64,000 bases of DNA from Pontibacter burrus. Lineage in GTDB: Bacteria > Bacteroidota > Bacteroidia > Cytophagales > Hymenobacteraceae. Position 1 is the stretch's first letter. Each line of letters begins with the position of its first letter. The DNA is taken from the NCBI RefSeq assembly GCF_010686685.1, contig NZ_JAAGWD010000009.1, positions 62,001-126,000 on the forward strand. Direction: 5' to 3'. Below the pieces are notes generated by a model. It had not been told where the DNA came from. It was given only the letters and a program-made list of their open reading frames with translations, and did not search any database. Made by a program: the position numbers and the translations under genes. Shown piece after piece: positions 47,431-64,000 of this stretch.

Positions 47431-47449
47431 AAAAATGTGTGTTTGGGGC

Positions 47450-47480: not shown

Positions 47481-47500
47481 CATCACCAAAACGGAAAAAT

Positions 47501-47574: not shown

Positions 47575-47585
47575 CTTGAAAATCA

Positions 47586-47620
47586 GCCACTTACGAGTAA
47601 AATCGTTGAGTGGCTTTTTT
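47586..47620 (+). terminator. tRNA-Arg terminator; left copy of a 20-bp direct repeat
   Basis: GCCACTTACGAGTAAAATCG followed by TTGAGTGGC and T7 forms a hairpin terminator. The first 20 bases recur exactly at 55770-55789, followed by a diverged hairpin arm and again a T run. This may be an att site for the region between them. Confidence 0.7.
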
Positions 47621-47831
47621 TATGTACACACATTTTGCACACAGATTTCTAATCTGACTCCTCTCTTTTGAGTTTATTTCTCCCAGCCTTCCGTTGTTTC
47701 ATCAGATAAAAAAATTAAGCTATTCCGCAATAGCTTATTTACTTAGCCACTTCCTTTCCAGCTAATTTGTCTTCGTCCCTCTTAAGCCCTATAAAATTTA
47801 ATGCCTTCACCATCTCCATCATCTTTGCTAT
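47621..47831. other. Start of the foreign region, no gene seen
   Basis: About 210 bp, AT-rich, without recognisable genes or repeats, leading into the radC relic. Confidence 0.5.
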
Positions 47832-47987
47832 AACAACCCTTCCGGCAACAGTAAGGTTAGCACAGCTGACCTACGGCTGGCAAAGAAATTGAAACTAGGC
47901 GAGGAACCGCTCGACATCGCCGTCTCGGACTACATCATCGTCACCAGCGAGACTTACTACTCTATGGCAGACGAAGGGTTTTTATAG
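47832..47987 (+). pseudogene. C-terminal relic of a RadC-family (JAB domain) protein
   Basis: The plus-strand frame reads NNPSGNSKVSTADLRLAKKL, then DIAVSDYIIVTSETYYSMAD and EGFL before a stop. This matches the C-terminal third of RadC/JAB-domain proteins (canonical HNHPSGN.. and SFADEGLL). The first metal His is replaced by Asn (NNPSG), and nothing of the N-terminal part remains. RadC-like genes are common cargo of integrative elements in Bacteroidota. Confidence 0.8.
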
Positions 47988-48061
47988 CCCTTTTGTTGCT
48001 CATTGTCCAAAGTTCAAAAAGGGTAGCATACCCCAACGTTACTTTATATTAAGCAAAACTA

Positions 48062-49627
48062 CTACTCTTGCTGATGCTTCAGCAACTTTCGTCCCTTCTC
48101 TGTTATTACATAACGCTGTAAAGGGCTGCTAGGCCGATCCTTAATAGTGCGATCTAATAAACCCTCGGCTAATAAAGGGTCAATATACCGTCGTGCGTTG
48201 TCAGTATGATTTGCCAAGCCTAATACGCCCTCTAGAATGTCTTTCCGTTTAGCTGGCTTCAGTGCATATTTAAGGACCTTCATATGCTCTGGCTCCAGCC
48301 TCTTCGCAAGTTCCTCTTCAGCCTGGTCGTTAACCTGGTCGTTAGCTTGGTCACTCTCGACTAAGCTGGCCTCTAAAAATGCAGGGTGGCAGAAGATCTC
48401 CACCTCAAAGAAGGTTCGGTCATCATCTGTTCTAAAAATAGGAGCGGGGGACCCGTTGCTTTCCAATACCCTCTTGATCGTAGGAATACCAGTGGCCCTG
48501 CCTTCCGTCAGGTCCAACTCCTTCAGGAAATCGCCCAGCCGGCGGTTCCGGTAGCGTCGGGGCCTGATCCGCCCACTCCTAAGATCCTCCTGGCGGATAG
48601 AGCGGTCCGGCCCTCCATAGTTGAGAATCACGATGGATTCAGGTGTCACCCGGATCTCTACCTGTTCCCGAACCAGATAGTCGCGGTGATACAGGGCATT
48701 GGCAACGGCCTCCTCCAAGGCCGCATAAGGGTAGTTCCATAAGCGAACTGCCTCCGCCTTGCCCTGCTGCTTGATTACCTTCTCCCTTAGAAAGTTGGTC
48801 TGAAGCAGATCCAGCGCTTTGCGAATCATGGCGGGCACGGGACCGGTTATTCTGGGAAATTCTGTAAACTCCGGATGCCCCTCCCCCTCCGGGAAATACA
48901 CCACGTCAACCCAGGTGGCGGGAAAGAATCTTTCGGGATGCTCGTTGAACATCATCAAGGCCACATTGCGCGGGAAGCGGTGCTCTGCGGGGCCCTCCAC
49001 GAGCAGCATTTGCTCGAGCACCTCCGTCTTGGTGTGCTGCTCCATCCACTCCATCAGCCTGCTCCCCACCCTTCGCAGGTGGTCCTGCACCAGCACCATA
49101 GACACGTCCTCCAGGCTCGCCTGCGTGTTGGGGCGGTCATCAAAGGGAACCTGGTTAGCCAAGCTGATCAGCTCCTGCTGGGTCTCCTGGTCTGCCTTGA
49201 CAGAGTTGGCATAGCGGCGGACGTAGTAAAAGTACCTTTTCTGGCTGGCCGTTATCTGCTCGGGCACCTCGTAGGGCCGGTTAGAGCCGCCGGGAACCCA
49301 GATAACCAACAGTTGGCGCCCGTCCACCTCTTCGATGAAGACCTTGGGGATGTAGATCGGTCTTATAAGGTTGTTGAAGCCAATCATCTTCCGCTGTATC
49401 TCCGCAAGCTCCGCCGCTGAAAGTCCCTTGACTGGGCGCTTCGGCACGCCCTCCTCCTCCACTATCCCCACGATAATGTAGCCGCCGCCCGTGTTCTCAA
49501 AATCGTTGGCAAAGGCGCAGATAGAGCGGTAGATGGCGTCCGGGTTCCACCCTTCCTTGAACTCTATCCGGTCAGACTCCACAGAGCGCTGATGCAGGAG
49601 GTCTTCTATGTTGATGTGTAGAGGCAT
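48062..49627 (-). CDS. Schlafen AlbA_2 / HATPase_c_4 ATP-binding protein
   Basis: I chose the ATG at 49627 (521 residues); an open frame reaching 49804 adds sequence without homologous look. The N-terminal AlbA_2 domain has SVESDRIEFKEGWNPDAIYR (about 13-32) and GGGYIIVGIVEEEG. The C-terminal part has the HATPase_c_4-like EEAVANALYHRDYLVREQVE and GGPDRSIRQEDLRSGR, then a winged-helix-like tail. Such proteins are common on mobile elements and may act in transcription or defence, but the role is unproven. Its GC content appears higher than the left half. Confidence 0.85.
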   Translation of the reverse strand: MPLHINIEDLLHQRSVESDRIEFKEGWNPDAIYRSICAFANDFENTGGGYIIVGIVEEEGVPKRPVKGLSAAELAEIQRKMIGFNNLIRPIYIPKVFIEEVDGRQLLVIWVPGGSNRPYEVPEQITASQKRYFYYVRRYANSVKADQETQQELISLANQVPFDDRPNTQASLEDVSMVLVQDHLRRVGSRLMEWMEQHTKTEVLEQMLLVEGPAEHRFPRNVALMMFNEHPERFFPATWVDVVYFPEGEGHPEFTEFPRITGPVPAMIRKALDLLQTNFLREKVIKQQGKAEAVRLWNYPYAALEEAVANALYHRDYLVREQVEIRVTPESIVILNYGGPDRSIRQEDLRSGRIRPRRYRNRRLGDFLKELDLTEGRATGIPTIKRVLESNGSPAPIFRTDDDRTFFEVEIFCHPAFLEASLVESDQANDQVNDQAEEELAKRLEPEHMKVLKYALKPAKRKDILEGVLGLANHTDNARRYIDPLLAEGLLDRTIKDRPSSPLQRYVITEKGRKLLKHQQE

Positions 49628-50001
49628 AGGGTAAAAGTAACACAGTAAGCCGGAATCAGCAACAGGCAGGAAGAAGAATAGGCCTTCACCATAACGTGGC
49701 CGCATGAAGCAGTATAGCTTGACCACACCATATCGGCCAGCCAAATCTACTGGTCCTGTCAGTGGCCCAAGGAATATCGGACTCCTATTCCAAGGAGGCA
49801 ACACCTTGCGCCTTTAATTCAAAGTGGCTATATTAGCTTTCATAAGCAGTGGGGCTAGCCTTTTGCTTTCTTAATACCTATAGGGTGAACTTCGACTGTT
49901 CGCCTGATAGGCCAAGCCTCCCGAGAATCAGTTGGTAAAACAGGGACAGTCGTAGAACAGACTAAACGATGCGGAGACTGACCATCTGAAAAGCTTAGGC
50001 C
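49628..50001. other. Spacer, nothing recognised
   Basis: About 370 bp between divergent genes. I see no gene, repeat or promoter box. Confidence 0.5.
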
Positions 50002-50907
50002 ATGAAGCACTTGAAGAAGTTCCTGACCCGCCTGCAGACCTTTGAGCTCAACCCTATTCAAAGGAGAGTGGTTACAGGTCCTTACGGCCACCAGGAAGTG
50101 CGCAGCTACGACCTCCGGCACGAGACGCACTACGACGAGGCCGCCGTCTTCAAAAGCGAGCTCAGGCTCCTCTCCCAGCTGGCCGCGCTCGATCTTCTTC
50201 CCCTCCACCGCCCGCAACTGCAGCTGGTCTTGGGGCAGATGACCGAGTTAGAGGACCACTTCAGGGCCTTTTGGGTCAGCTTCCACAACCACGCCCCGGA
50301 CTATGGGCAGGCTGAGCTGCCGGCTACCTCCACCAGCTCAGCCTGCCCGAACTGTTTGTCATGCGCAACCTGCAACCCATCGAGGTCGGCATAGAGATCC
50401 AGGAGGAGCTAATAGATGACCTGGCCGAGTCGGTCAAGCTGCGGGAGAAAAGGAGCTGGAAGCGAATGCCCTTCCCCCCTGCCTAGCCCGTTACGGGTTT
50501 CCCCCGCTTTGTGGACGGGGTGACGGAGAGGCTCTTTGGGATCCTCAAGGGCTACTTTACCCCGGAGGACCAGCAGCAGCTACTGGCCCTGTTGCAGGAG
50601 AACCGATCCCCCGCCTCCCCACTGCTCTTCCACGGCAACGGCAACCAGCTGGCCAACGCCTTCAAGCAGCTCTACGAGGCCAACCTGATCATGGGCTGCC
50701 TCAAATCGGACCTAGAGGCGTGGATCTCCCGTCACTTTGCCTATGTCTACCGCAAGCAGCAGAGGACCCTCCCCCCGAACTACCTGGCCGCCATCATTCT
50801 CCTCCAACGCCAAGCCCTGTCAGTCCCCCATCCTGGACGTACGCAGGCAGCCCGACGGAACCTATGCCGTCTTCCCGGCGCTGCGCACGCAGAAAAACTA
50901 CAGCTAA
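50002..50907 (+). pseudogene. Unknown mobile-element gene, broken by frameshifts and a stop
   Basis: From ATG 50002 the frame reads KHLKKFLTRLQTFELNPIQR and continues to about 50320; a -1 shift then restores YLHQLSLPELFVMRNLQPIE up to TAG at 50484. After that stop the same frame continues (GFPRFVDGVTERLFGILKGY, ... NLIMGCLKSDLEAWISRHFA), and a second shift near 50805 restores SPILDVRRQPDGTYAVFPAL, ending at 50905-50907. It may be one gene of about 300 residues or two adjoining ones. I do not recognise the family. By position (before an excisionase-like gene) a regulatory role on the element is possible. Confidence 0.65.
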
Positions 50908-51000
50908 CTATTAGGAAACAGGCAGGCTGCAGGACGGCCATCTTGCAGCCTTGCTAACTCATGCCCTACCATTGCAGCACAAACCAAACAGAATGCTGCC

Positions 51001-51315
51001 ATGGAACATCTCACCTTCGACCAACTCCCCCGCGCCGTCAGCCAGCTGCACGAGCAGATGGGCCGCATCGAGCGGCTGCTACTCGAGCACCGCCCCCAGC
51101 AGAAAGCAGAAGAGGCCATCCTCAACATCCACCTCTCCGTGGCCACGCTCTACACCAAGGTCAGCTGCCGGGAGCTGCCCTTCAGCAAGCGGGGCAAGCG
51201 CCTCTACTTTCACCGAGGTGAGCTGGAGGAGTGGGTCCGCCAGGGCCGCAGGAAGACTGTTTCCGAGATCCGCGAGGAGGCGGTCGAGCTTGTTGCAGGC
51301 AGGAAAAGAAAGTAG
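51001..51315 (+). CDS. helix-turn-helix protein, excisionase-like
   Basis: The 104-residue protein has a helical start (QLPRAVSQLHEQMGRIERLL) and a MerR/excisionase-type HTH: HLSVATLYTKVSCRELPFSK followed by RGKRLYFHRGELEEWVRQG (about 44-80). This is the HTH_17 plan found in excision accessory proteins of Bacteroidota integrative elements. It is followed 88 bp later by a primase gene, the order known from NBU-type elements. Confidence 0.8.
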   Translation: MEHLTFDQLPRAVSQLHEQMGRIERLLLEHRPQQKAEEAILNIHLSVATLYTKVSCRELPFSKRGKRLYFHRGELEEWVRQGRRKTVSEIREEAVELVAGRKRK

Positions 51316-51402
51316 TGCCTACCAGGAAAAAGAATGCCTGCCACGAGGAAAAAGCACTTCCCACCCCGATCATTTCCACTCTTGCCTCTGAAGGGAAAAA
51401 CG

Positions 51403-52360
51403 ATGAACATTCAGCAGATCAACAGTGAAATTGCCATCACCGATTACCTGGCCAGCCAAGGCATCCAGCCTGCCTACAAGCGGGGCTGTGACTGGTGGTA
51501 CATCTCCCCGGTGCGGATGGCCGAGCGCACGCCTTCATTCAAGGTCAACACGCGCCTGAACTGCTGGTACGACCACGGCAGCGGGGAGGGCGGCAAGGTC
51601 TTCGACCTGGCCATGCGCCTGCACCGCTCCGCCTCCATTCGAGAGGTCATCCAGCTCCTGACGGAGCACTCCCTCTCTTCAGCGGCAACATCTACCCTAA
51701 CCATCAAGCCAGCTGGGACGCCGGACAACCGGCAAAGCGCAGCGATCACACTGGAATCACCGCCCGGTATCCAGGTACTGGCGGCAAAGCCGCTGGAGGA
51801 GAACAGCCCACTGGCAAGCTACCTGCTTCAGCGCGGCATCCCCTTCGACACAGCAAGTCCCTATTGCCGACAGGTAAGCTTTGCCATCGGCACCAGGCGC
51901 TATGAGGCAAACGGGTTTGAAAACCGCTCGGGTGGCTATGAACTGCGTAACGCCTGGTTCAAGGGATCCTCCTCCCCCCAAAGACATCACCTTCGTGGAC
52001 AACGGTTCGGGCACCGTCAGCCTTGTGGAGGGATTCACGGACTTCCTCTCCCTCCTCGAGCTTCGACCCCACCTCAAAACCAATGCCAGCTTCCTTGTCC
52101 TCAATTCTCTTGCACTGGTTAACAGAAGCTTGGAGCTGCTCGGCCGGCACCGACGGGTACTCCTCTACCTGGATCAGGATGCAGCTGGCAGGAAGGTGAC
52201 CGAGCGGCTGCTCCAATCAAATCTCAACTGCAGGGACCACTCCTCCCTTTACAAATACTACAAGGACTTGAACGAGCTGCTGGTGGCCAGGCAAGGGAAG
52301 GCTAAACAGCTTCGACTAGGACCTGTCCACGGGAAGCGGGCTACCGGAAAGCAACTTTAA
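51403..52360 (+). pseudogene. CHC2/TOPRIM primase of a mobile element, frameshifted
   Basis: The first frame begins NIQQINSEIAITDYLASQGI and contains the zinc-finger-like SPVRMAERTPSFKVNTRLNC..WYDHGSGEGGKVFDLAMRLH. Near 51974-51979 (a run of six C) reading must slip one base to continue as ITFVDNGSGTVSLVEGFTDF, LSLLELRPHL, the TOPRIM EGFTD and YLDQDAAGRKVTERLL motifs, to the stop at 52358. Without the slip the protein ends at 52122. It resembles PrmN1-type primases of mobilizable elements. The shift may be real decay, a sequencing error or recoding. Confidence 0.8.
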
Positions 52361-52466
52361 GAGCGGGGAGCAAGTTTGTGTTTTTGTCATACAAAAACCT
52401 CTGCCGGCCCTGCGCTCCCGGTAGTCGCAGCAGGGATTTCTTCTCACAACGAGAAGCAACAAGAGC

Positions 52467-52792
52467 ATGGAATCAGAGACAGCACAGCGGCAGCAAAGCC
52501 ATGAGAGAAAAAAGGGCGGCCGCCCCGCCAAGCGGGTGAAGCGGAGCCACACCCTCGTCATGCGGGTGACCGACACAGAGCGGCTCCTAATTGCAGACAA
52601 GGCGAGAGAGGCTGGCCTGAGCCTCTCGGCCTGGTTTCGGGTGGCGGCCAAGAAGGCCGGATCGTGGCGCGCCTTCGTCCAGAGGAGGCGGCCTCGCTGC
52701 GTATGCTCTCGGGGCTGGCCAACAACCTCAACCAGCTAGCCCGGCTGACCCACAGGAGGGGGTGCTGTCCCTGCAGGGCAGGTGCCGCCTAG
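52467..52792 (+). pseudogene. MobC-like mobilization protein, frameshifted and truncated
   Basis: The frame from 52467 gives basic residues and VMRVTDTERLLIADKAREAG, LSLSAWFRVAAKKA, as in MobC. A shift near 52660-52680 restores the classical MobC signature LRMLSGLANNLNQLARLTHR, then about 14 residues to TAG at 52790. Normal MobC continues further and is followed by a relaxase gene, which is absent. The break point lies at 52760-52792. Confidence 0.8.
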
Positions 52793-53022
52793 GCGATCAT
52801 TTTCTCTAGCTCCGGCCGTTCCTTACTCTTGCCCGATTTCTTTCCTTTGAATATGTGCCCGTACCTGTTGTGGGTGAGCGCGTAAAGCTGCAGGTCTAAT
52901 TCGTGGTCATGGATTAGCCCCTCACCAAGAAAAGGGCCAACGTGCTGTCCCACCTTTCTGTTTAGCCTGAAACGGCAGCCGACGGGGATGAAGTTTGCCT
53001 CGTCCTGAAAAAAGTTGATAGT
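52789..53022 (-). pseudogene. C-terminal fragment of an unknown protein
   Basis: The minus strand keeps an open frame of about 77 codons (NFFQDEANFIPVGCRFRLNR, HDHELDLQLYALTHNRYGHI, FKGKKSGKSKERPELEKMIA) that ends with TAG at 52791-52789, butted onto the mobC end. There is no start codon; a stop lies just upstream. It is probably the tail of a gene cut when the region was rearranged. The family is not recognised. Confidence 0.5.
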
Positions 53023-53030
53023 TTACATTA

Positions 53031-53477
53031 TTAACCCCGTCTCCAGGTCAAAAATGAGTTGACCTCTTTACCATTAGAAACAATAGGCGTTGCCGTGCTG
53101 AGGTGTAACAAATCGCCCTCTATTTTCACCACCCGTGGCTGCGTTTGCCCCGTCCAGTTGGGGAACAATGAAACGAACATGGAGTGCGTCAGCGACTGCT
53201 TTTCCTCATCTACATGGAAGGGACCTGAGTAGGCAATGTAAGTGGAGGCTTCCTGCTTGTATTCTTCGTCCGTGCCATCGAACCAGTCTCCCGAAGCGAA
53301 GCTCCTTCTGTCGGGATGCATCAGTTGGGCAGACATATACCCATCCGGCGTATACATGATAATGCCCATCGGCTTTTCACTCATGGGGTAGAACGGGTCA
53401 GAGCTATCCACAGGCTTTTCGATATACGAGACCAGCATCCAAGCGCCGATCAACCGCTCTCTTAATGTGTTTGCCAT
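53031..53477 (-). CDS. lipocalin-like domain protein
   Basis: The 148-residue protein starts ANTLRERLIGAWMLVSYIEK (the lipocalin GxW motif) and continues with YPMSEKPMGIIMYTPDGYMS and a C-terminal VVKIEGDLLHLSTATPIVS..FLTWRR. This is the Lipocalin_5 (lipocalin-like) plan. Such proteins often sit with SDR and alcohol dehydrogenase genes, as here. The ligand is unknown. It is followed on the same strand by nothing intact; the SDR gene is upstream by 36 bp. Confidence 0.85.
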   Translation of the reverse strand: MANTLRERLIGAWMLVSYIEKPVDSSDPFYPMSEKPMGIIMYTPDGYMSAQLMHPDRRSFASGDWFDGTDEEYKQEASTYIAYSGPFHVDEEKQSLTHSMFVSLFPNWTGQTQPRVVKIEGDLLHLSTATPIVSNGKEVNSFLTWRRG

Positions 53478-53513
53478 ACGTTTGACCTTAAAATCAGAAG
53501 ATAGTGATAAACA

Positions 53514-54275
53514 TCAGGAAGCTGCTTTAGCGTCGCCATCAATCGGCAGGATTTGCCCTGATATCATTTTAGCACTGTCGGAGGCTAAAAACAGGGCCAG
53601 TGCAGCAATGTCTTTGGGGTCTATAAATCCTTTCAAAGACTGTATCGCCATGGCCTTGTCTTTTTCCTCTTCGAAGCTGGTGCCGTTGGCATCTGCTCTT
53701 CCCTGCAACACTCTCTCAATCCGGGAGCCGGCCACCGCTCCTGGTAAAATGGCATTAGCGCGAATGCCATACCTGCCTAATTCAATGGAGAGAGTTTTGG
53801 TGAAACCTACAATACCCCACTTGGCGGTGGAATAAGGGCTCCGGTTTTCATAGCCAAACCTGCCGGCCAGCGAGGACATGTTGATGATGACGCCGGCAGA
53901 AGACTTTTTCAGAAAAGGAATGGCCGACCGGGTCACATAGAAGGTTCCATTGATATCCACCTGCATTACTTTCTCCCATTCGTCGGGGTCGATTTCTTCC
54001 ACCGGCGACGTAGGACCAGAAATGCCGGCGTTATTGACAAGTACATCCAAACCGCCCAAAGCTTGCGCTCCGAAAGCCACCATCGCTTCCACGTCGCTTC
54101 GCTTAGAAACATCGCATACTTTGGTAACTACGCCAGGCACGTTGTGCTCGAGCTCCATTAGGGCAGCTTCATCGATATCGCAAACAAATACATTTGCGCC
54201 GCTTGCTGCAAATGCTTTTACGATTTCGAGGCCTATACCTGCGGCGCCTGCAGTTACGATTACTTTTTGGCTCAT
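53514..54275 (-). CDS. short-chain dehydrogenase/reductase
   Basis: The 253-residue protein is a classical SDR. Visible are the coenzyme motif TAGAAGIGLEIVKAF (about 8-22; TGxxxGIG with Ala), NNAGISG, the catalytic Ser in INMSSLAG, and YSTAK (about 156-160). The pattern DxxD-type CDIDEAA favours NAD. Substrate unknown. It is likely co-transcribed with the lipocalin-like gene. Confidence 0.9.
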   Translation of the reverse strand: MSQKVIVTAGAAGIGLEIVKAFAASGANVFVCDIDEAALMELEHNVPGVVTKVCDVSKRSDVEAMVAFGAQALGGLDVLVNNAGISGPTSPVEEIDPDEWEKVMQVDINGTFYVTRSAIPFLKKSSAGVIINMSSLAGRFGYENRSPYSTAKWGIVGFTKTLSIELGRYGIRANAILPGAVAGSRIERVLQGRADANGTSFEEEKDKAMAIQSLKGFIDPKDIAALALFLASDSAKMISGQILPIDGDAKAAS

Positions 54276-54622
54276 GATTCAGGGTTTGAGGTAAATAAAA
54301 TCCTCCTGTCACATCATAATAGGGGAGCCTTGCTTTCTATTCATACGCTTCACTGTTTCAGTGCTGCCTGCTTGTTCGTGTGCGTTTTATATCCACAAAA
54401 AGTTCATTTCAAACTCCAGCGATTAACGTGTGTTTAGAAAGGCAGATCAATGACAAGGGCGAATTTCCTTCCTTTTGCAAGGCCCTGGAGCTTTCTCTGG
54501 ATAACCCAATCTTCCAGGTTGGTAGTTGGATCTATTGAACACCTTACATTAACGCACTTAACCAATAAACGTGTTTAATAAATAATCAATCGCAAGTAAA
54601 CAATAATTTCACGTAGGCGACT
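54276..54622. other. Spacer, nothing recognised
   Basis: About 350 bp between the SDR gene and a dehydrogenase relic. No gene or clear promoter pair is seen. Confidence 0.45.
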
Positions 54623-54820
54623 ATGAAAATCCAGGCAGCTGTATTAAACGACGTAGATGAGTTATTAACAATCGAAGAAGTAGGATAAGCGGAACCCGGT
54701 GCTGACGAAGTTCTGGTTAAGGTCATAGTGACAGGGGTGTGGCATATTGATGCGAAATCCATCAATGGCAGAGGAGCACCTTTTCCGGCTATAAGTGGTC
54801 ACGAAGGAGCCGGCATTGTG
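54623..54820 (+). pseudogene. N-terminal relic of a zinc alcohol dehydrogenase
   Basis: The frame reads KIQAAVLNDVDELLTIEEVG, then a TAA stop, then AEPGADEVLVKVIVTGVWHI, DAKSINGRGAPFPAISGHEG and AGIV. This is the start of a medium-chain zinc dehydrogenase. The zinc Cys of the usual GVCHTD motif is Trp (GVWHID), and the rest of the gene is missing. It probably accompanied the SDR gene as cargo. Confidence 0.75.
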
Positions 54821-55222: not shown

Positions 55223-55769
55223 GAATGTAGCTGCTACTCTCCCCATGAAGGCTCCTTATATTAAAGAGGTTGTTTATCAAGTTGCGTTTCAACTTCTAGC
55301 AGGATTCTGATGACAGTAGCTTGTTCTATGATACAGAATACTATTACACCTCCTGTATTACCACAGCCAAACCCTTCAACTTCTAATGTAATAGACCTGA
55401 GGGTATCTTTAGTTATCTCATTAATCCCTCAATTAATGATACAATCACACCAGTGGCAAATCCAAATCAGCCATAATACTGTGCCGCTATTACCTTCTAC
55501 TGATACCAAGTAGATCATTCCTTGGTGCACCAAACGTGCATCATATTGTTCCCAAACAAGGGACTAACCCGGGACCAACATGCCAGGTTAGTAACTGATT
55601 AGTATCTGACAGGGGTGAGATGCCTTTCTCAAAGCAGGATCGTTAGCGAGGTAGGGTCAAAATAATCTTCCCCCTCATCCAGTATATCAATGTATTTGAG
55701 AGACTATTACACTTGCTCTCACTGTTGATCAGGGGGCTGGTTCAAGCCCAGGAGGGAGATCGATAATGG
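55223..55769. other. Degraded region, no supported gene
   Basis: About 550 bp before the right repeat. Open frames here are short and unconvincing. A T-arm-like GGCTGGTTCAAGCCC lies at 55735-55749 but does not fold into a full tRNA. Confidence 0.45.
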
Positions 55770-55803
55770 GCCACTTACGAGTAAAATCGCTAGATGGCTT
55801 TTT
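55770..55803 (+). repeat. Right copy of the 20-bp tRNA-downstream repeat
   Basis: GCCACTTACGAGTAAAATCG at 55770-55789 is identical to 47586-47605; then CTAGATGGC and a T run. The distance is 8,184 bp. It may be attR of an integrated element, or a duplicate terminator. Confidence 0.65.
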
Positions 55804-55843
55804 TATTTGCATCTAAACTGCTCTTCTAGTTTTCAAAAGTATG

Positions 55844-57346
55844 TTACGTTTGCTGCAGGTGATGCTTTTGCAGGTACGCGTTAGGGGCATGCTCCAGGGC
55901 CCCTTCCGGAAGCCACTGCCACCACTCTCCCAAATCTTTTTGAATGATGTTTTTATAAAAGGGAGGCAGTAACTTTGACTCCCCTTCAAAGTACTTCCTG
56001 AATGCCACGTCTTCCACCAGGTTTTTGCGCACCTGCCGGTAAAACCGCAGGCGTCCGTACCCCTCAGAAGAAACAGCCCGCATCAGGTTCATCCACTTGG
56101 CCGAGGAGCTAGGTGTGGCCATAAAGCGCCTGTAAATAGCCTTTCTGGAGAAGGTGTAGGCCGTCAGGTCGATCACCCTGTCATAGAACTCCACCCACCC
56201 GTAGTTGCGGGGCCTTACGTTCATGGCTAGGTGGTTGTTGAGAAAGTGAAAGGGCAGCACCCTGCCCGCCCGCTGGTACTCCAGGTTAAGCGGGGCCGCC
56301 TGCCCAAAGGCGCTCAGCAGGGAGTAACCGGGAAAGGCCGCCGGGGACAGGTCCACGAAGCGCTTGGTCAGCTCGAAGGGCTCGGCGCCCTGGTCGCTGT
56401 CCAGCCCCAGCACAAAGTTAGTCTGCACGTAGGGCACGTAGCGGAACATCATGTTCACGTGCTCGGAGATGCGGGCCACCTTCTCCTCCTCCACCCTGCG
56501 CGAGGTTCTGGACTTGTTCCCCAGCTCGTACCAGGACTCGATGCCGGGCAGCAGGGCATCAAAGCCGTTGCGCTGCATTACCCGCAGGTGTTCCTCGGTC
56601 AGGATGGACAGGCTGCTCTCGGCAAAGAAACGGAAGCTCCCCGGGGGGCCGCGGAGGCGATGGCCTCCATGTTGGCCTCAAAGCGCACGCCGAAGTTAGG
56701 GTCGTGCCAGCCGACGGTGGGCTTGCGGAACTTTGTCAGCAGAAAACGCAGGTCCTCCCTTACCACGTCAAAGTTCATGGGCTGGTAGTCCACCGTGGCG
56801 TCTATGCAGAAGGAACAGGTATAGGGGCAGCCGACGCTCCCGATCATAGGCACTACCTGAAGAAAGGGTGCCTTCTTTATAGTAGGCTCAATAAACTTCC
56901 ACCGCTCCTTTACCCCTGGCAGGTGCGCGGGCTGCCGAAAGGTATCTGCCCTCGGGCCGCTGCGGACTGCAGTCCTGGAGTACGTCCACGATGGTGGATT
57001 TATGGGTGAAGCCCAGCACGTAATCAAAGTACTTCACCGCATCATCCGGATAGCAACGCGCGTGGGGGCCACCCAACACCGTCACCGCGCCCAGGCTGCG
57101 AAAGTATTGGCTAAGGGCGTAGGCCAGTAAAGCCGCCTGGGTAAAGGAGCAGATAAAGACCACGTCAACCCCTTTGGGCAGCTCCTTCCGCAGATCCTCA
57201 CGACCGGTGTAACATACCAGCACCACCTCATGGCCTTCCTGCTCACACCAAGTAGGCACCACCTGCGGCATAATGCTCGCCAGGTTCGCATGCATGACCC
57301 TGGCCCACAGGGTATCGGCAGGACCTTTGCTCACCAGGTCAACCAC
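55844..57346 (-). pseudogene. B12-binding radical SAM protein, broken by two frameshifts
   Basis: Three frames together give one protein of about 490 residues. The N-terminal part (from 57346, VDLVSKGPADTLWARVMHAN ... VLGGPHARCYPDD) is a B12-binding domain. After a shift near 56930 the middle holds the radical SAM motif GCPYTCSFC, with DPNFGVRFEANMEAIAS. After a second shift near 56641-56650 (run of six G) the rest continues from the region before LRVMQRNGFDALLPGIESWY to the stop at 55844. Members do varied radical reactions; the substrate is unknown. Confidence 0.8.
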
Positions 57347-57561
57347 ACCCCAATTCTTTATCTTGCCATATATCAGGACATAGGTTGCAGGCCAAGCGCA
57401 TACGCACTTTTAGCTAGCATTTGTACTTTACTTATGCTTAGTTTTTAATTACTTGATTAAGCGTAAAATGGTTTTCAAGGATGCTATAGGTGGCTGCTGC
57501 TCCCCTTGGAAGGCAGTGCCGCCGTATTAGAGCAGACGGTCTACCCAACGCCAAGCCGCTC

Positions 57562-57822
57562 CTAATAGAGATAGTTCCTGTGCCCTGCCTTTGCCAGGCG
57601 GGCTCCTTCCTTTATTCCTTCATCTGTGATGGTATAGGTACAGGGGATGACCCCATCCAGAGTCTGAATGTGGCCGCTTTGGACCAGCTCATCTACCAAA
57701 AGTTGCAGGTGGTTGCCGCCCGGGGATGCGCCGAGGTTACCCACTTTGGCGAAATCGTCAATGGTGAGAGTTTCATGCTTGATCAATGCGTTCAAGACAA
57801 TGGTCCGGTTTAGTGTAGCCAT
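57562..57822 (-). CDS. small winged-helix-like hypothetical protein
   Basis: The 86-residue protein reads ATLNRTIVLNALIKHETLTI, DDFAKVGNLGASPGGNHLQL, LVDELVQSGHIQTLDGVIPC, TYTITDEGIKEGARLAKAGH. The pattern (helix, helix, recognition helix, wing TYTITDEG) suggests a winged helix. Start codon ATG at 57822 follows a clean spacer. No family named. Confidence 0.7.
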   Translation of the reverse strand: MATLNRTIVLNALIKHETLTIDDFAKVGNLGASPGGNHLQLLVDELVQSGHIQTLDGVIPCTYTITDEGIKEGARLAKAGHRNYLY

Positions 57823-58043
57823 GGTGGTTGTGCTTAAATGGTGAATAAATTCTTTTCAGCTGATGCGCAAATAGAGTAAGTTTGTGTTGAGGGCAGGTCC
57901 GATGTTGAGCGGCGTAGCCTTCCGCTTAGACCAGTTTCACATCCACTTGTCTAAGGTAAACCTATAGGAGCGGGCTACCGGCACTTTGAATTACATGCGG
58001 CCGGTTCTGTAGCAGCATATCATCCGACTACCAACGCCTCATT
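57823..58043. other. Spacer, nothing recognised
   Basis: About 220 bp with no gene or repeat. Confidence 0.4.
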
Positions 58044-58202
58044 TTACACAAGCTCACGCTCAAAGTATACAAGTTCTTTTTCTTGAGGACGCTCCAGGTT
58101 AGTGCAGTAGTAGATGCGCTTCACGTATCGCCTTACCTTCAGCTTCAGACCGGGGTTTACTTTGGTGTACACGATAGATCCCTCTGGATATTTATTTTCC
58201 AT
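58044..58202 (-). CDS. 52-residue conserved-looking small protein
   Basis: The frame reads MENKYPEGSIVYTKVNPGLK, LKVRRYVKRIYYCTNLERPQ, EKELVYFERELV. It is basic and beta-rich and looks like a family of tiny Bacteroidota proteins, which I recall only vaguely. The start at 58202 is 18 bp after the stop of the upstream 123-residue gene, so co-translation is likely. Too short for most gene finders. Confidence 0.7.
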   Translation of the reverse strand: MENKYPEGSIVYTKVNPGLKLKVRRYVKRIYYCTNLERPQEKELVYFERELV

Positions 58203-58220
58203 GGTGGGGTAAATTAGGGG

Positions 58221-58592
58221 TTAGTTGTTGTTAGATTTTCTGGCTGCTTTTGCTGCCTTCTTTGCCTGCATGTCAGCATCCGTTCGGGTACGCTGGGCTT
58301 TTGCCTCCATTCTGGCGGCGCGTTTAGCATGCTTGGCCGCATAGGCCGCTTCTTTGTTTAGTCTTTTTGCTTCTTTGGCATTCGCTTCTGCCACCCGGGC
58401 ATCAGCTTTAGTATTTTTCTTTAGCTCTTTAGCATCTGATAAGCGATGTTCATCAGCAATGGCTTTCTCCTTTGCTGCTTCCTGATCCTGTTTTTGCTTT
58501 TCCTTGGTAGGTGTATTCTGTGAAAAGGATTGTGTTGTTACGAGCATTAGGAATCCTGTAATCAACGAAATTAAAATGGTCTTATAAGTCAT
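58221..58592 (-). CDS. exported Ala/Lys-rich coiled-coil protein
   Basis: The 123-residue protein has a signal peptide (TYKTILISLITGFLMLVTTQ, then SFSQ) and a mature part almost entirely Ala, Lys, Glu and Arg in helical repeats (AKEAKRLNKEAAYAAKHAKR). Probably periplasmic; function unknown. It lies upstream of the 52-residue gene on the same strand. Confidence 0.75.
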   Translation of the reverse strand: MTYKTILISLITGFLMLVTTQSFSQNTPTKEKQKQDQEAAKEKAIADEHRLSDAKELKKNTKADARVAEANAKEAKRLNKEAAYAAKHAKRAARMEAKAQRTRTDADMQAKKAAKAARKSNNN

Positions 58593-58920
58593 ATTTGTCA
58601 GGAAAAGGTATATTCTATTATCCTACTTAGTTGTACGGGTAGATGAGCAGGTCAACTGGAATTAATTGACAATAAGGCACTTATATTCATTAAAGGTGTT
58701 CCAGGCGTTCTCTTGGCACATTTACAGGGCTTAGTTTATTCTTTTCATGGGTGAGAAGGGGCGCATAGCCCATTGGAAATAAATTAAAGCTGCTAATACT
58801 CAAACTATTACGGTTGGTGCGCTTGTTATACATTCATACCCCCTATCCGGCCTGATGGCCAGAACCGACCAGCCGATTGGCTGCCCCGCTTTTATTCGTC
58901 CCGCTGCTAAAACCTTAACT
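58593..58920. other. Divergent spacer, nothing recognised
   Basis: About 330 bp between divergent genes. It is likely to hold two promoters, but no clear TTTG/TAnnTTTG pair is seen. Confidence 0.4.
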
Positions 58921-59349
58921 ATGAAAAATGACCTTGTCAATTACCGGGACTATGCAGCCTGCCTTACCCAGCTACTGGGGCGAACGCCCAGCCCAACCGA
59001 ACTGATTGGCTTTGAGGATAACCAGCACTTGCTGCAGATAAACAGGCGCTCAACTGAAAACGACGCCTACCGGATTACTTTCCTGAACGATACCCCTGTG
59101 ACGCTATTGGCTGACGGTATGATTTTGGGTAGCGCCATTCAGCTGCACAGCCAGGAAGGAGGGCACAGGTTCTACACTGTCATGTTTGAGGAACAGGGCA
59201 CCGTGGAAGAACATTACCTGATGCTGGACGCCTCTGTGGAGTCGGCTGTGGTAGGTGGGGTCAGAACCGCGTTGGTGCAGCACGTGCGGCTGATCACCAT
59301 CGAAGACCTGGTGCTGAGGTACAACCCCGTGATGTATAACCTTACTTAA
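58921..59349 (+). CDS. hypothetical protein
   Basis: I use the ATG at 58921 (142 residues: KNDLVNYRDYAACLTQLLGR ...). An open frame from 58855 would add an unlikely 22 residues. The middle has NQHLLQINRRSTENDAYRIT and ILGSAIQLHSQEGGHRFYTV, and the end ITIEDLVLRYNPVMYNLT. No family recognised. It is followed 10 bp later by the next gene, so co-transcription is likely. Confidence 0.6.
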   Translation: MKNDLVNYRDYAACLTQLLGRTPSPTELIGFEDNQHLLQINRRSTENDAYRITFLNDTPVTLLADGMILGSAIQLHSQEGGHRFYTVMFEEQGTVEEHYLMLDASVESAVVGGVRTALVQHVRLITIEDLVLRYNPVMYNLT

Positions 59350-59359
59350 CCTAAATGAG

Positions 59360-59710
59360 ATGACACAGGACCAATTTTACCATTGCCTGAACAGGATTCT
59401 GGAGCTCAGAGAGAAGATCAAACAGACGTATGATGTTCGCAGGAAAGCTCAGGCAGCAGAATCTGCCGAGGCTGAAGAGCAGGTGGATTTCGATTCGCTC
59501 AGGCGCTTTGCCGATAACAAGGAAAAAGCAGACAAGAACACTGCCAATTCACAGGCACTGCTAAAAGAGCTCGCCGCCCAGGAAGCAAAAATAAGGGTAT
59601 TCGTGCCAGCACAACTCTACGGCACCCGAATTGAGGCAACCCTCCCGGGTCAGGCCCCACTGTACGTGCTGGTGGAAACTGACCAGATAGTCATTGAAAA
59701 AGGCCTTTAG
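59360..59710 (+). CDS. hypothetical coiled-coil protein
   Basis: The 116-residue protein has a long charged helix (LNRILELREKIKQTYDVRRK to about residue 80) and a short beta tail (IEATLPGQAPLYVLVETDQI). It is 10 bp downstream of the 142-residue gene. No family recognised. Confidence 0.6.
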   Translation: MTQDQFYHCLNRILELREKIKQTYDVRRKAQAAESAEAEEQVDFDSLRRFADNKEKADKNTANSQALLKELAAQEAKIRVFVPAQLYGTRIEATLPGQAPLYVLVETDQIVIEKGL

Positions 59711-59720
59711 GGGCTATGGC

Positions 59721-59921
59721 TCAACCAAGTTTGTTGATAAAATTTGAAAGCTGGCTGGTGTACCCTCCTTTGGTGAGGCAGAGCATTTCCTCAGTATCGT
59801 CGTTCCTTACCCATGTGAGCATATTGTCTTGCCTCCCGTTTTGGTGCGTGTACTCTTCCCAGTATTCGTGAGCAGCCGCTAAAGCCTTGCGCTCCAGTTC
59901 TTGTAGTTTGTCCTCTCTCAT
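59721..59921 (-). CDS. small hypothetical protein
   Basis: The 66-residue frame reads REDKLQELERKALAAAHEYW, EEYTHQNGRQDNMLTWVRND, DTEEMLCLTKGGYTSQLSNF, INKLG. Helical N-terminus and beta C-terminus look like a real small protein. It is convergent with the previous gene. Confidence 0.5.
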   Translation of the reverse strand: MREDKLQELERKALAAAHEYWEEYTHQNGRQDNMLTWVRNDDTEEMLCLTKGGYTSQLSNFINKLG

Positions 59922-60213
59922 GTTCTAAAGGTTTGCTGCGTGATATAAGCTACTTTGTGCAGTTCAGTATACGTAGCCTGCATAGAAGTAGTGTGTAGAC
60001 CATCGGCTATTTTAGCAGGGCACCCAACTTACAGTAGCGCACGCCTGTCTGTCTTCCCAGACAAGAGCTAATATGGCAAAGCACTAGTAAGAGCGACATG
60101 ATCTTGTGTCACGGAATACTACAGCAATCAAAACACCCCGAGCTGTCACTGTCCGTAAAATAAAACAGTAAACAGACATTCCTTTTGGCCTTTCAGTGTT
60201 TTCAATACATGCT
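59922..60213. other. Spacer upstream of the AsmA-like gene
   Basis: About 290 bp with no gene seen; presumably holds the promoter of the giant gene. Confidence 0.4.
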
Positions 60214-63200
60214 ATGCCAGATTCAGCTAAAACCGGGTGGGGCCACAAAGCCCTGAAGACTGCAGGCATTGTGCTAATCAGTCTCGCTGGTTTTTTACTG
60301 GTGGTGCTGGTCTTGCTATACCTCTTGGCCGAACCCCTGGTGGAGCGGTATCTTAAAAAGCAGGTTGCTGTGCACACCGAAGGGCTTTACCAGGTCAACT
60401 TTCACGACTTGCAGCTGCACCTGCGAACGCGCAGCATCACCCTACGGGGGCTGCATCTCTATCCGGATCCTGCCGTGCACCAACGGCAAAAGGAGAAGGG
60501 GCGGGCCAGCCGAATCCTTCTCGATGTCCAAAGTCCGGGGCTGACCGTTACCCGAATTAACCTGGTGGACCTGCTTTTTAAGAACCACTTAGGTATGCAC
60601 ACCGTCGTGGCGGAGCGCCCGGTGGTCACGCAGTTGCTGGACGAATCGGTGGAGAAAGAAGAGAGTCACAGCAGTAAGGGGAGCGGTTCCCTGAAAGCAA
60701 TCAGCATCTGGCAGCTGAACGTACAGCAAGCCAGGTACCGTTACCTGGTACTGGGGCAACGCAAAAGGCCACGCCATGAAACTCCCCGGCTTTCGTTACA
60801 GGTGCAAGACCTGCGGTTAGACTTACAGAAACAGAAGGGTATTTTTGAAATGCTCAGTGCAAGCAGAGTGGAGCTAAATATCCGGGACTATGCCTTCTAT
60901 GCTCCAGACAGCGTGTACGCCATGAACGTCGGGCAGCTTTCCTACTCCTCCACAAAGCAGACTCTGAAAGCAGAAGGGATAGCCGTACAGCCGGATTACT
61001 CAGTAAACGCGGCAATGCCTAAAGACCGGGCTCTGCACCTGCTCTACCAGTTCCGGATTCCTTTGCTATACCTGACAGGCGTGGATGCCGAAGCAGCCTG
61101 GCGAACAAAGCGCTTGCACCTTAGCAAGTTACTCATAGAGCGCCCCGTCCTTACTGTAATGGAGGACCTCTCCGTAGCTGACTCCTCGGATTCTCCTGCC
61201 CTAGCCGGTATATACGCTCAAATCTCCCCATACTTAAAGGAAATCAGCACAGAGGAGGTGCACCTTAGCGACGGCAGCTTCAGTTACCGCCAGAAGAACA
61301 GGATAGTGCATACGCTCCACCGCCTGGGCAGGGCAACTATAGACCTGCAGGCGCTGCAGCTCGACTCGGCCACCTTTTTTGCGCCGAAAGCAAACGCCTT
61401 CGCAGCAGAGATAAGTGCAGCCCTAAGAAACTATACATACACACCTTATAACAGTCCGTACCTCTTACAGGTTGGCAGCTTGCGGCTCTCTTCCCAAGAC
61501 AAAACCCTGCAGGTAGATAACCTGCACCTGGCCGGAGACTGGGACAAGAACGATCGCCTGAAAGCCCGGAAAAAGGCATTGCGTATGTTTTACGACATCT
61601 CCCTGCCACGCCTGCACCTTCAGGGCCTGGACCTGCTGCAAGCTTTGCGCACATCCCGACTGGCAATCGATCGCATGACCGCTGAGAGACCCATCATTGA
61701 TGTACGAAAGGACGAACAAGTGACTGGTACTGGGGAGAGAGATGATCATCAGGAGGTGAACCGGCAAATTTCAGGGTTGGTAAACAGGCTGGAAGTAGGA
61801 AAGATAGACATTGTAGATGCCTCGCTCACTAAGCACAGTAAAACCAGACGCATGCAGCGCCTGCAGGAATTGGAGCATGCCAACCTAACTGCCACGGGAC
61901 TGCATGTTGATCTGCCTTATACCTTCCATCCGGATGAGAAACTCCCGTTGGAGGATGTCGTTGTGACAGCCCAAAGTTATCGCTCTCAGCTGCCCGACAA
62001 TACCTATACGTATGCCCTGACGGGCCTGCGCTACTCCACCCGCCAGTTGGAGTTTACCGCACGTACCGCAGAGGTTCTCTCCAGCAACAGTGCCAATGAC
62101 CAGCACAAGCGTATTCATAACGCCAGTCGCACCCTTTTTGATTTGTCTGCCAATAAGTTGCGGGTAACAGGCGTGGACCTGGTAAAGGCGCTGTACACCA
62201 GGCGGCTGGAGATAGACCAAGTGATTCTTCGGCAGCCAAAGGTAGCCATTCTTGTGGACCGTAAGGTGACTGCCTTAGAGTTGGAGCGTCATGGGGTAAG
62301 AAAAGGGCTTTTCGAGCTCGTGGATATAATTTCTGCAAACGGCATTCAACTGGAAGACGGCTCCTTTGCATTCAACGAAAGGCTGGCTCCGGTGATGCGT
62401 ACCCATTGGCTGGAGCACGTCAACGTTACCGTCTCAGGCTTTGTACTTACTCCCGCTGTTTTTGCCAACCTGGCCGATGCGCTTCCGATGCGGGAGCTGA
62501 ACCTGCAGGCCAAAAACTATACTTATAAAACCACCGACAGCCTGTATACCATCAGGCTCGACAGCCTGTATTATTCCAGCAGGACAAAAGAAGTCATCGC
62601 CCATACATTCAGTGTTAGTGCCGACAGGGGAGTGAATGAGCGCCTGAAAGTGAATAGCCCTGACCTGGCGAGCCACAACCTGATCGATATTTCTGCCAAA
62701 AGGTCCCGCATAACCGGTTTTAACCTGATCCAAGCCTATGCAACCGGACAGTACCGCATGGACAGCCTCCTGCTGACAGGCCCGAAAGTAAAAATTCTTC
62801 AGGATCATAACGTCATTCCGGTAAATGCCCGGACTGCGGCTGCCCAACTGACAGAACTGCAAACGGGTTTTAGGGTAGGGCGCGTGCAGGTTTCAGATGG
62901 CACACTTGACTTTAATATACTGGAAGATACCATCCGCATCAGCCAGACCCTGGAGCATGTAGCACTGGGGATTGACCAGTTACGGCTGGTATCATGGGAG
63001 GAGACAGAGGTGCTTGATATATTTGACGCAGACGACTTGGAGTTGCTGGTGCAAGGGTATTCCTACTATACTGCAGACAGCCTGTATGTTATTGAAGTAA
63101 ATGATATACGGGCCTCCATGTTAGCCAGGAAACTGCTGGTAGACAGCCTTCGGGTGCGGCCGCTGTATAGTAAACAAGAATATGCAGCCCTGTTTACTTA

Positions 63201-64000
63201 CGCCCGGGACCGCATCGATCTGGCAGTAGCTGAGATGGAAATGCAGGGCATCAGCCTGCGGGCGCTGTTCGACCGGCAGGATTTGATAGCAGCTAAAATG
63301 TTGGTCCGAAACCCAAATGTAGAAGTATACCGGGACAACCGTTTAGGGATTGACCCGGCACAAAAGCCTCCGACGCTGCAAAGAGCCCTACGCGGGGCCG
63401 GGATCTACATCCGGCTGGATACTATACTGGTTGAAAAGCAGAGCCTGGTGGAACACCCTGTCATCGCCATAAACGCTATCAGGCCGGGTGTACTTGTGCT
63501 GGAAGATATTCGTATGGAGCTATATAACGTCACGAACGATTCAGCGTTCATCCGGCTGAATAACATGCTGACAATAAACGCTTCGGCGCAGTTTATGGGC
63601 GTCAGCACGCTGCATGCCCGCTTTCAGTTTCAGATGGATCACCCGGAAGACCGCTACACTTGTGAGGGTACGTTGGATCCCATGGATTTTTCAGCCCTTA
63701 ACCCTTTGGTAGAGAACATGCTGTTTATCCGGGCATCGAGCGGCCGGATAAACCAGGTTTCCTTTCTGGTAGAGGCCACGGATCGCCTGGCTACCGGTCA
63801 GGTGAGTTTTCCTTACAACAACCTGAAAATACAACTCCTGAACAAGCAGCACCCGGAAAACCCTGATTTTCTGCTAAAGGCAGAGAGTCTGCTGATTAAT
63901 ACATTTATTATCAAGTCCAACAACCCGTCCACTCTTGGCAAATTCAGGGAAGGCACGTTTCAGGTTAAGCGTGATCCCCAGCGTTCCGTTTCCTACCACC
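60214..64000 (+). CDS. AsmA/DUF748-like giant envelope protein, runs off the right edge
   Basis: An unbroken frame from ATG 60214 to the window end gives more than 1,260 residues. A single membrane helix near the start (about 15-40, GIVLISLAGFLLVVLVLLYL) is followed by long repeated beta-rich segments (TLRGLHLYPDP, LDRLRLDLQK-like, VGKIDIVDASLTK, RVSDGTLDFNI-type). The late part (HPEDRYTCEGTLDPMDFSAL, NPLVENMLFIRASSGRINQV) matches the DUF748/AsmA C-terminal plan. These bridge-like proteins may move lipids between membranes. The open frame has no stop, so the true end lies outside. Confidence 0.85.
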   Translation, partial: MPDSAKTGWGHKALKTAGIVLISLAGFLLVVLVLLYLLAEPLVERYLKKQVAVHTEGLYQVNFHDLQLHLRTRSITLRGLHLYPDPAVHQRQKEKGRASRILLDVQSPGLTVTRINLVDLLFKNHLGMHTVVAERPVVTQLLDESVEKEESHSSKGSGSLKAISIWQLNVQQARYRYLVLGQRKRPRHETPRLSLQVQDLRLDLQKQKGIFEMLSASRVELNIRDYAFYAPDSVYAMNVGQLSYSSTKQTLKAEGIAVQPDYSVNAAMPKDRALHLLYQFRIPLLYLTGVDAEAAWRTKRLHLSKLLIERPVLTVMEDLSVADSSDSPALAGIYAQISPYLKEISTEEVHLSDGSFSYRQKNRIVHTLHRLGRATIDLQALQLDSATFFAPKANAFAAEISAALRNYTYTPYNSPYLLQVGSLRLSSQDKTLQVDNLHLAGDWDKNDRLKARKKALRMFYDISLPRLHLQGLDLLQALRTSRLAIDRMTAERPIIDVRKDEQVTGTGERDDHQEVNRQISGLVNRLEVGKIDIVDASLTKHSKTRRMQRLQELEHANLTATGLHVDLPYTFHPDEKLPLEDVVVTAQSYRSQLPDNTYTYALTGLRYSTRQLEFTARTAEVLSSNSANDQHKRIHNASRTLFDLSANKLRVTGVDLVKALYTRRLEIDQVILRQPKVAILVDRKVTALELERHGVRKGLFELVDIISANGIQLEDGSFAFNERLAPVMRTHWLEHVNVTVSGFVLTPAVFANLADALPMRELNLQAKNYTYKTTDSLYTIRLDSLYYSSRTKEVIAHTFSVSADRGVNERLKVNSPDLASHNLIDISAKRSRITGFNLIQAYATGQYRMDSLLLTGPKVKILQDHNVIPVNARTAAAQLTELQTGFRVGRVQVSDGTLDFNILEDTIRISQTLEHVALGIDQLRLVSWEETEVLDIFDADDLELLVQGYSYYTADSLYVIEVNDIRASMLARKLLVDSLRVRPLYSKQEYAALFTYARDRIDLAVAEMEMQGISLRALFDRQDLIAAKMLVRNPNVEVYRDNRLGIDPAQKPPTLQRALRGAGIYIRLDTILVEKQSLVEHPVIAINAIRPGVLVLEDIRMELYNVTNDSAFIRLNNMLTINASAQFMGVSTLHARFQFQMDHPEDRYTCEGTLDPMDFSALNPLVENMLFIRASSGRINQVSFLVEATDRLATGQVSFPYNNLKIQLLNKQHPENPDFLLKAESLLINTFIIKSNNPSTLGKFREGTFQVKRDPQRSVSYH

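Follow-up and report, generated by a model that had tools for sequence, protein, structure and literature searches.

Tandem mobile elements at tRNA-Arg(ACG) as the probable cause of an abrupt loss of a palindromic word in Pontibacter burrus

Introduction

Tandem integration at a common gene end, with subsequent decay, has been described for integrative and mobilisable elements (IMEs) and cis-mobilisable elements (CIMEs) in the portion of PMC5704250 used here. Iterated DNA words have served to recognise acquired genes: in the corresponding part of PMC3025956, scarcity of HIP1 together with unusual codon usage marked such genes in Synechococcus elongatus, and HIP1 is said there to be regarded as forming in place through mutation. 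PMC3497702 presents a related oligomer method, and PMC4390886 describes further iterated palindromes, distinct from HIP1, in rare cyanobacteria; its main text contains neither the term Bacteroidetes nor the term CTATAG. Here we analyse a 64,000-base stretch of the Pontibacter burrus genome in which a palindromic word with the core CTATAG, abundant on the left of a tRNA-Arg(ACG) gene, drops to chance level on its right. In all likelihood this boundary marks where an integrative element, element 1, has its left attachment site, with a second element in tandem behind it.

The window, as we call the whole 64,000-base stretch, comprises bases 62,001-126,000 of contig C29 (141,896 bases) from a 4.31-Mb genome assembled in 29 contigs; window-equivalent coordinates extend its numbering past 64,000 along C29. 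L labels denote fetched loci and G labels genomes of the genus, and L006, L007, L008 and L030 may overlap the G set. Relatives of the site were found via the VTT gene that precedes the tRNA, giving 34 loci (31 Pontibacter, 2 Hymenobacter and 1 Botryobacter), whose right arms were followed for at most about 10 kb.

Results

The first-pass annotation of this DNA had claimed that the palindrome disappears at tRNA-Arg, and the counts bear this out. The window contains 114 CTATAG, as compared with 14.8 +/- 3.85 in 100 shuffles, and 110 of these lie left of 47,575 against 4 on the right (49,878; 57,484; 57,962; 61,337), where 38 would be expected in 16.4 kb at the left density (Poisson P(<=4) = 3e-12). 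Along C29 the density is 1.99 per kb left of the tRNA and 0.25 per kb from there to the contig end. Under a first-order Markov model the left side of C29 is enriched 8-fold (218 copies vs 26.2 expected), whereas the count in the right part of the window matches chance (4 vs 3.1), and the whole right side to the contig end, 32.3 kb, has 8 copies for 8.8 expected. Given this agreement with expectation, the right side is not depleted of the word but is DNA without the enrichment. Common octamers include ACTATAGT, AACTATAG and CTATAGTT. On the left of the window ACTATAGT and CTATAGTT have 23 and 61 copies and on the right 0 each, and ACTATAGT occurs 49 times on the contig's left against 1.57 expected; the single exact octamer reported right of the tRNA was found to be AACTATAG, at 61,335.

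The minimum count among 187 overlapping 16.4-kb blocks on the contig's left was 19. A wider set of 283 overlapping blocks of this size, drawn from 27 sampled 20-kb stretches (3 on C29) and the 49.6 kb left of the tRNA, gave a mean of 31.5 (standard deviation 9.1) and a minimum of 8; these statistics exclude contigs < 16.4 kb, and the letters of several very small contigs were N. This lowest block falls in a word-poor, prophage-like stretch (L070, C11:100001-120000), which encodes terminase-like, DnaB, D12-class and C5 DNA methylase proteins near an integrase. The CCCCTCC blocks, also said to be lost on the right, are indeed rarer there in non-coding DNA (1.32 per kb left vs 0.22 right), but their overall density per kb is similar, with 13 copies of CCCCTCC/GGAGGGG left and 4 right, three of the latter inside ORFs (open reading frames).

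The left edge of the acquired DNA coincides with the 3' end of tRNA-Arg(ACG), at 47,575, a gene that comes after the VTT gene in 34/34 relatives. A 98% copy of the last 46 nt of the tRNA is present 22.96 kb away, at window-equivalent positions 70,492-70,537 (C29:132,492-132,537; L005:6492-6537). Adjoining this copy is a tyrosine recombinase, a 448-aa ORF on the minus strand that starts 112 nt before it and combines Arm-DNA-bind_5, SAM_5 and Phage_integrase domains (arm-binding, SAM-like and catalytic, respectively). Since its first listed codons overlap the arm repeat, the true start of this integrase probably lies downstream. Arm repeats TGTACACACA..TTGCACACA are found at both ends of the element, and a TGTACACACA-TTTGCACACA sequence lies just inside both. 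Judged from these sequence features, element 1 is a putative 22.96-kb unit extending from 47,576 to window-equivalent 70,537, with the recombinase at its right end (Table 1). Compared with the first-pass annotation, the boundary proves sharper and the unit longer. Terminators of the class GCCACTTAC...GTGGCTTTTTT, counted by eye, follow tRNA-Arg in 12 of the 34 relatives, and the hairpin terminator of element 1 appears to have replaced the native one of the tRNA.

Element 2 starts at 70,538, is AT-rich (31-39% GC in 2-kb steps) and runs to the end of C29, which holds its left 9.4 kb; its right 3.2 kb very probably lies on contig C11. Its repeats (GTAAAACATAAGTAAAACA) differ from those of element 1, GTAAAACA pairs occur at both of its ends, and a 66-bp segment at its left end matches the corresponding end in P. 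fetidus L006 with 82% identity. The C11 end is likewise AT-rich DNA, with 34% GC in the last 2 kb, and bears GGTAAAACA repeats and a 402-aa recombinase of the same domain build as the 448-aa enzyme. The last 16 nt of the tRNA are copied at C11:1030235-1030250(-), so that the 3' end of the target tRNA is duplicated at both element ends (46 nt for element 1, and 16 nt for the far end of element 2, across an assembly gap). The C11-end terminator resembles that behind tRNA-Arg in L007 (94.6%) and, by its sequence, looks like the native tRNA-Arg terminator. A tmRNA gene lies 1.5 kb beyond it, and the matching L025 flank begins 6.5 kb right of the same tRNA. We infer that a single tandem array spans the gap between the ends of C29 and C11. 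L007 has a nuo flank, which was considered for the right side of this lineage and rejected, the genome's own nuoN being 44 kb from the distal attachment site on the same contig.

Element 2 also contains candidate phage-defence genes at L005:6860-9841, with ABC-3C CTD12 and DUF2326 domains (PADLOC models PDC-S73 and PDC-M68B), and a PbeC-like ORF at its C11 end (L092:12285-13415) matches a candidate defence model.

Dinucleotide composition was compared using delta*, with values of 125-126 for 47.6-53.6 kb and of 95-171 from 67.6 kb onwards, the maximum over 53 windows on the left being 87. To place the site among others in the genome, recombinase matches were collected: nine in total, two at this site, five elsewhere and the two strongest domain matches, which we take to be XerC/D. 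At the five other sites word-poor tracts of 8 to about 36 kb start at or near the recombinase, with tRNA-Ser and tRNA-Arg(TCG) genes at the edge of two tracts and tRNA-Ala within a third. The lowest 8-kb CTATAG count containing the recombinase gene was 0-3 at five of the seven non-Xer sites and 6 and 7 at the other two; the Xer sites score 13 and 7, and the background of 26 stretches, L070 excluded, has a median of 10, a 5% point of 3 and a minimum of 1. Equal patchiness in the rest of the genome had been named beforehand as grounds for doubting the boundary. Density tended to be low at the other recombinase-linked regions, but a few sampled stretches, L066 and L040, are low without a recombinase; the former (C27:1-20000) has no recombinase match and contains large ORFs with Ig-like and secretion-sorting domains.

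The same doubt had been attached to sister strains sharing the region at the same place. The word-poor Pontibacter L032 does share part of it: 49,974-52,789 is 81.5% identical to a 2.9-kb block behind the same tRNA there, with ORFs that are longer or open; the word-rich L006, L007, L008 and L030 have no element 1 match in the 10 kb right of the tRNA. Instead, this position is occupied by a recQ-purD flank in L008, by nuo genes in L007 and by other AT-rich DNA in L006 and L030. All four have word-rich left arms, and right of the tRNA the backbone genes of L008 and L007 carry 18 and 11 CTATAG, the AT-rich DNA of L006 and L030 1 and 3. A recQ-purD-type flank stands right of the tRNA in 11 of the 34 relatives, within about 1.3 kb in seven (L008, where it begins about 1 kb after the tRNA, L009, L010, L012, L016, L018 and L028), about 2.9 kb off in L014 and L023 and about 5.4 kb off in L029. 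This pattern of occupancy fits repeated site-specific insertion rather than shared inheritance. As a candidate right flank of the present lineage, the recQ-purD flank of L008 was rejected; its counterpart is on C24, whose first 20 kb are word-rich.

Two side observations concern DNA next to this tRNA in relatives. An exact 8-12 nt direct repeat with a period of 11-13 nt lies within 110 nt of the tRNA in 13 of 34 relatives (L006-L039) and varies by species (GCATAC, GGGCAC, GGGTGCGG, GGTACAC and CACCACAC types), as if each element family brought its own integrase arm sites; L007, however, has such a repeat without an obvious element. Right of the L008 tRNA-Arg, a dispersed composite repeat (L008:12442-13134) has many matches in the present genome, 43-546 bp long and 67-94% identical, including 14148-14425, 19460-19964, 25917-26049 and 44749-44984 of the window.

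The relative ages of the word and the element were addressed through word sharing and the relationships of the integrase. The AACTATAGTT decamer has 1300 copies here, against 9 of a reversed control, and among 49 other genomes of the genus 4 have 1087-1477 copies, three have 104-330 and the remaining 42 at most 28. The word is thus a palindrome far above expectation, genome-wide and in related genomes, which defines the HIP type. We aligned words for 14 of the 34 relatives over window positions 30,001-47,575, dropping matches < 200 bp. Backbone positions share the word in 13/23 cases for L008, 5/7 for L006, 7/17 for L030 and 2/8 for L029, and nine relatives with 0-4 CTATAG in the left arm have 0-2 of 6-13 words in common. 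In this alignable DNA, most differences from relatives lacking the word are substitutions rather than gaps, and the word seems to come about through substitution, not insertion. The 13 of 23 words held in common with L008 suggest that much of the word set predates the split from that lineage.

The 448-aa integrase has a different set of relatives. Among 54 matches listed, nine at 86-89% identity come from 8 other genomes, each with 0-18 copies of AACTATAGTT; of the loci examined (L107-L118, out of the same 54), all eight fetched close relatives carry both the arm repeat and the 3' end of tRNA-Arg next to the integrase gene. Word-rich genomes offer only 56% (G017), 54% (G028) and 61% (G038) at best, and G014 has no match at E <= 1e-60. 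The VTT gene, however, is closest to that of L006, L007, L008 and L030 (87-92%), compared with 50-83% for the other 30 relatives. Acquisition after the spread of the word, as first proposed, is supported by these results, and the simplest reading is that element 1 came from a word-poor Pontibacter.

The genes of element 1 within the window are listed in Table 1; a broken nhaA, an AI-2E-type transporter and the integrase complete the set considered here. The description of the right side as one of broken genes fits in part. The RteC-like ORF (a tentative name with no family match), the primase, the mobilisation gene, the radical-SAM-like gene and nhaA are broken, but the AlbA/Schlafen ORF, the lipocalin, the short-chain dehydrogenase, the 1,296-aa ORF, the transporter and the integrase are all open. 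The HTH_17 protein appears excisionase-like. No relaxase or coupling protein was found among the ORFs scanned, a subset of all ORFs, and of the gene set of an integrative and conjugative element (relaxase, type IV secretion) those ORFs contain only the truncated NikA/MobA-like protein, part of element 2 being unassembled; the transfer genes of element 1 have apparently decayed. Family searches gave no name to the 1,296-aa ORF or the RteC-like pieces.

The AlbA/Schlafen ORF has its best relatives in the word-poor G048, G022 and G013 (85%, 85% and 84%), followed by 80% in the word-rich G038; it also matches Argonaute-associated PADLOC models. Five other genomes of the genus, including G038, contain open frames of 514-528 aa related to the radical-SAM-like gene (6 matches, 83-92%); G019 has a shorter frame (283 aa). 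The 1,296-aa ORF has relatives in 18 of 49 other genomes, including the word-rich G014 (60%). Parts of 48.1-67.3 kb match one G022 contig (69-84%) and parts of 55.9-64.1 kb one G014 contig (67-81%), and within the 60 kb covered of each contig ARAGORN located no tRNA; passenger genes thus move between contexts. In G014 (C47:144000-180000), relatives of the 1,296-aa ORF and of a radical-SAM fragment are located where CTATAG density falls, from 6-13 per 4 kb before 144 kb to 1-4 after.

Table 1. Features at the tRNA-Arg(ACG) boundary and in the part of element 1 that lies in the window
Feature	Position	Strand	Basis or comparison
tRNA-Arg(ACG), integration target	47501..47575	+	ARAGORN; Rfam RF00005
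Left attachment core (attL), last 46 nt of tRNA	47530..47575	+	98% copy at 70,492-70,537
Hairpin terminator, left end of element 1	47578..47620	+	direct repeat D1
Arm-type repeat TGTACACACATTTTGCACACAG	47623..47644	+	sequence, relatives; near-identical copy beside integrase, L005:6358-6378
AlbA/Schlafen + RecG-C-like ATPase ORF, 580 aa, open	48062..49804	-	Pfam, genus search
Broken ORF, two pieces	50002..50957	+	single open 317-aa ORF in L032
Helix-turn-helix protein (HTH_17)	51001..51315	+	domain search
Primase (DnaG Zn-ribbon); the L032 ORF is longer (318 aa, Zn-ribbon + Toprim)	51334..52122	+	
Truncated mobilisation protein (NikA-like/MobA), 90 aa	52467..52739	+	131 aa with MobC in L032
Lipocalin-like passenger gene	53031..53477	-	
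Short-chain dehydrogenase passenger gene	53514..54275	-	
Internal 84% copy of left-end terminator (43-nt repeat)	55762..55804	+	direct repeat
Broken gene, three ORF pieces	55844..57409	-	B12/radical-SAM by weak NCBIfam matches
1,296-aa open ORF	60196..64000 (continues to 64,083)	+	no Pfam family

Discussion

These data allow us to propose a mechanism for the boundary. A tyrosine recombinase would have joined the attachment site of element 1, a copy of the tRNA-Arg(ACG) 3' end, with the chromosomal tRNA; the element would have restored the 3' end of the gene and brought a hairpin terminator with it. Behind it in tandem sits element 2, which has another recombinase and other arm repeats; the two would have entered in successive insertions. 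If the incoming DNA lacked ACTATAG(T), a word already common in this Pontibacter clade, density would drop to chance at the tRNA, as it does. We judge it very likely that element 1 is an integrative element whose left attachment site forms this boundary, in a tandem arrangement at tRNA-Arg(ACG). The observations on which this is based are the duplicated tRNA 3' ends, two recombinases, matching arm repeats, a partly foreign composition, the distribution of the word, and relatives with and without the elements.

Four other explanations deserve to be weighed. The word is mainly intergenic (7.23 per kb vs 0.91 per kb in ORFs) and hence has fewer copies in gene-dense stretches, which gives some logic to the suggestion that the gap reflects chance patchiness or high coding density. 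The coding fraction on the right is nevertheless lower (0.72 vs 0.79 on the left), the non-coding rate falls from 7.82 to 0.65 per kb, and no left block comes near the 4 copies seen on the right; the counts refute this explanation and leave it hardly any chance at all. Mis-assembly or contamination joined at the tRNA is very improbable. A contig that ends inside element 2, in a genome split into 29 pieces, does invite the suspicion, but the duplicated tRNA ends, the arm repeats and the reciprocal attachment site with its tmRNA flank on C11 are traces that real integration leaves, genome completeness is 99.99 with contamination of 1.1, and the integrase-attachment module recurs in all eight fetched close relatives. 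An acquired unit restricted to 47.6-55.8 kb, the minimum suggested by the first-pass annotation, is distinctly unlikely. Such a unit would be bounded by the 84% direct repeat of 43 nt (47,578-47,620 and 55,762-55,804), and composition within element 1 is most foreign at 47.6-53.6 kb. The 55.8-kb repeat was, however, rejected as the right end because there is no tRNA copy there: the bases before 55,762 look plausibly tRNA-like by eye, but 269 of 500 shuffles score as high, so that no significant tRNA remnant was detected upstream of it. The chance-level word density also persists beyond 55.8 kb to the contig end, and the real tRNA copy and recombinase are at 70.5 kb. This repeat is an internal terminator copy and at most an old decayed element junction.

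The remaining alternative concerns timing. If the process that makes or keeps the word skips mobile DNA, the element could be older than the spread of the word, and the missing word would carry no information on age. Several genes of element 1 are broken and hence decaying, some passenger genes are 80-83% related to the word-rich G038, and HIP1 absence can reflect selection, for example in rDNA and ribosomal protein genes (PMC3025956, in the part used here). L008, on the other hand, has 13 of 23 words in common and yet no copy of the element at this tRNA; word-poor genomes carry the nearest integrases, while the VTT gene is closest to that of L006, L007, L008 and L030; and backbone ORFs do carry words, which speaks against plain exclusion from genes. 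We regard an older element as unlikely.

Several findings weigh against insertion of late-acquired tandem elements at the tRNA, or against parts of this proposal. The join between the C29 and C11 ends is an unassembled gap. Related genomes in which the site is unoccupied by this element were found, but their recQ-purD flank differs from the C11 flank here, so that the exact empty site of this lineage is not among them, and the recQ-purD flank of this genome is elsewhere (C24, with purD at C24:24866-26152), indicating that the insertion neighbourhood was also rearranged. In 4-kb windows starting at 53.6-65.6 kb delta* is 56-81, within the backbone range; composition alone was tried as a marker and fails in the middle of element 1. 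The 8-kb word count is imperfect as a classifier of single loci, although its trend is clear. L007, which is weaker in the word, has only 1 of 18 words in common. Three more distant integrase relatives (L116-L118, 62-67%) have no tRNA-Arg 3' end in the 4.3 kb fetched, and two of them have the arm repeat. The passenger-gene relatives in G038 count here as well, and the broken genes mean that element 1 is not brand new, which weighs against proof of late acquisition. Finally, a word-making process that ignored mobile DNA would give the same picture.

What had been an unexplained change of composition can now be read as an insertion site, with both ends of element 1 and a probable distal end of element 2 on another contig. 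The boundary is a fresh case of a known kind, integration in tandem and the use of word scarcity to recognise foreign DNA both being familiar, and the Pontibacter word is the less ordinary part. Tentatively, and with somewhat less than even confidence, we suggest that (A)ACTATAGT(T) is a HIP-type palindrome of one Pontibacter clade that reached >1000 copies mostly by in-place substitution and is kept out of imported DNA or too young to have entered it, so that its density would reflect residence time. A word confined to one lineage can reveal acquired DNA that dinucleotide composition misses, as in the windows starting at 53.6-65.6 kb. With >1000 copies in each of 5 genomes among the 50 of the genus, this word also offers a young system for asking how iterated palindromes spread, a question that to our knowledge is still open for HIP1. 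In open-licence literature, none of the matches listed concerned this word, 'actatagt' and 'ctatag' having 0 occurrences in the 10 listed of 71.

Comparison with described systems places the locus as follows, within the portions of the sources cited. It resembles the tandem accretion of CIMEs and IMEs (PMC5704250) in its common target gene end, its decayed genes and its integrases of similar specificity that are not closely related, and departs from a strict CIME in that element 1 keeps an open 448-aa integrase; its host is a Pontibacter. With the Bacteroides elements NBU1, Tn4555 and Tn4399 (PMC5704250) it shares the character of an integrated mobilisable element of Bacteroidota with a tyrosine integrase, represented here by primase and mobilisation remnants, whereas its target is tRNA-Arg(ACG), its mobilisation gene is truncated and the ORFs scanned include no relaxase or coupling protein. 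Like HIP1 in Synechococcus elongatus (PMC3025956), the word is a highly iterated palindrome, scarce in acquired DNA, that helps to mark islands; unlike HIP1, it belongs to a Pontibacter clade of the Bacteroidota, is mainly intergenic, and has its boundary here fixed by attachment sites.

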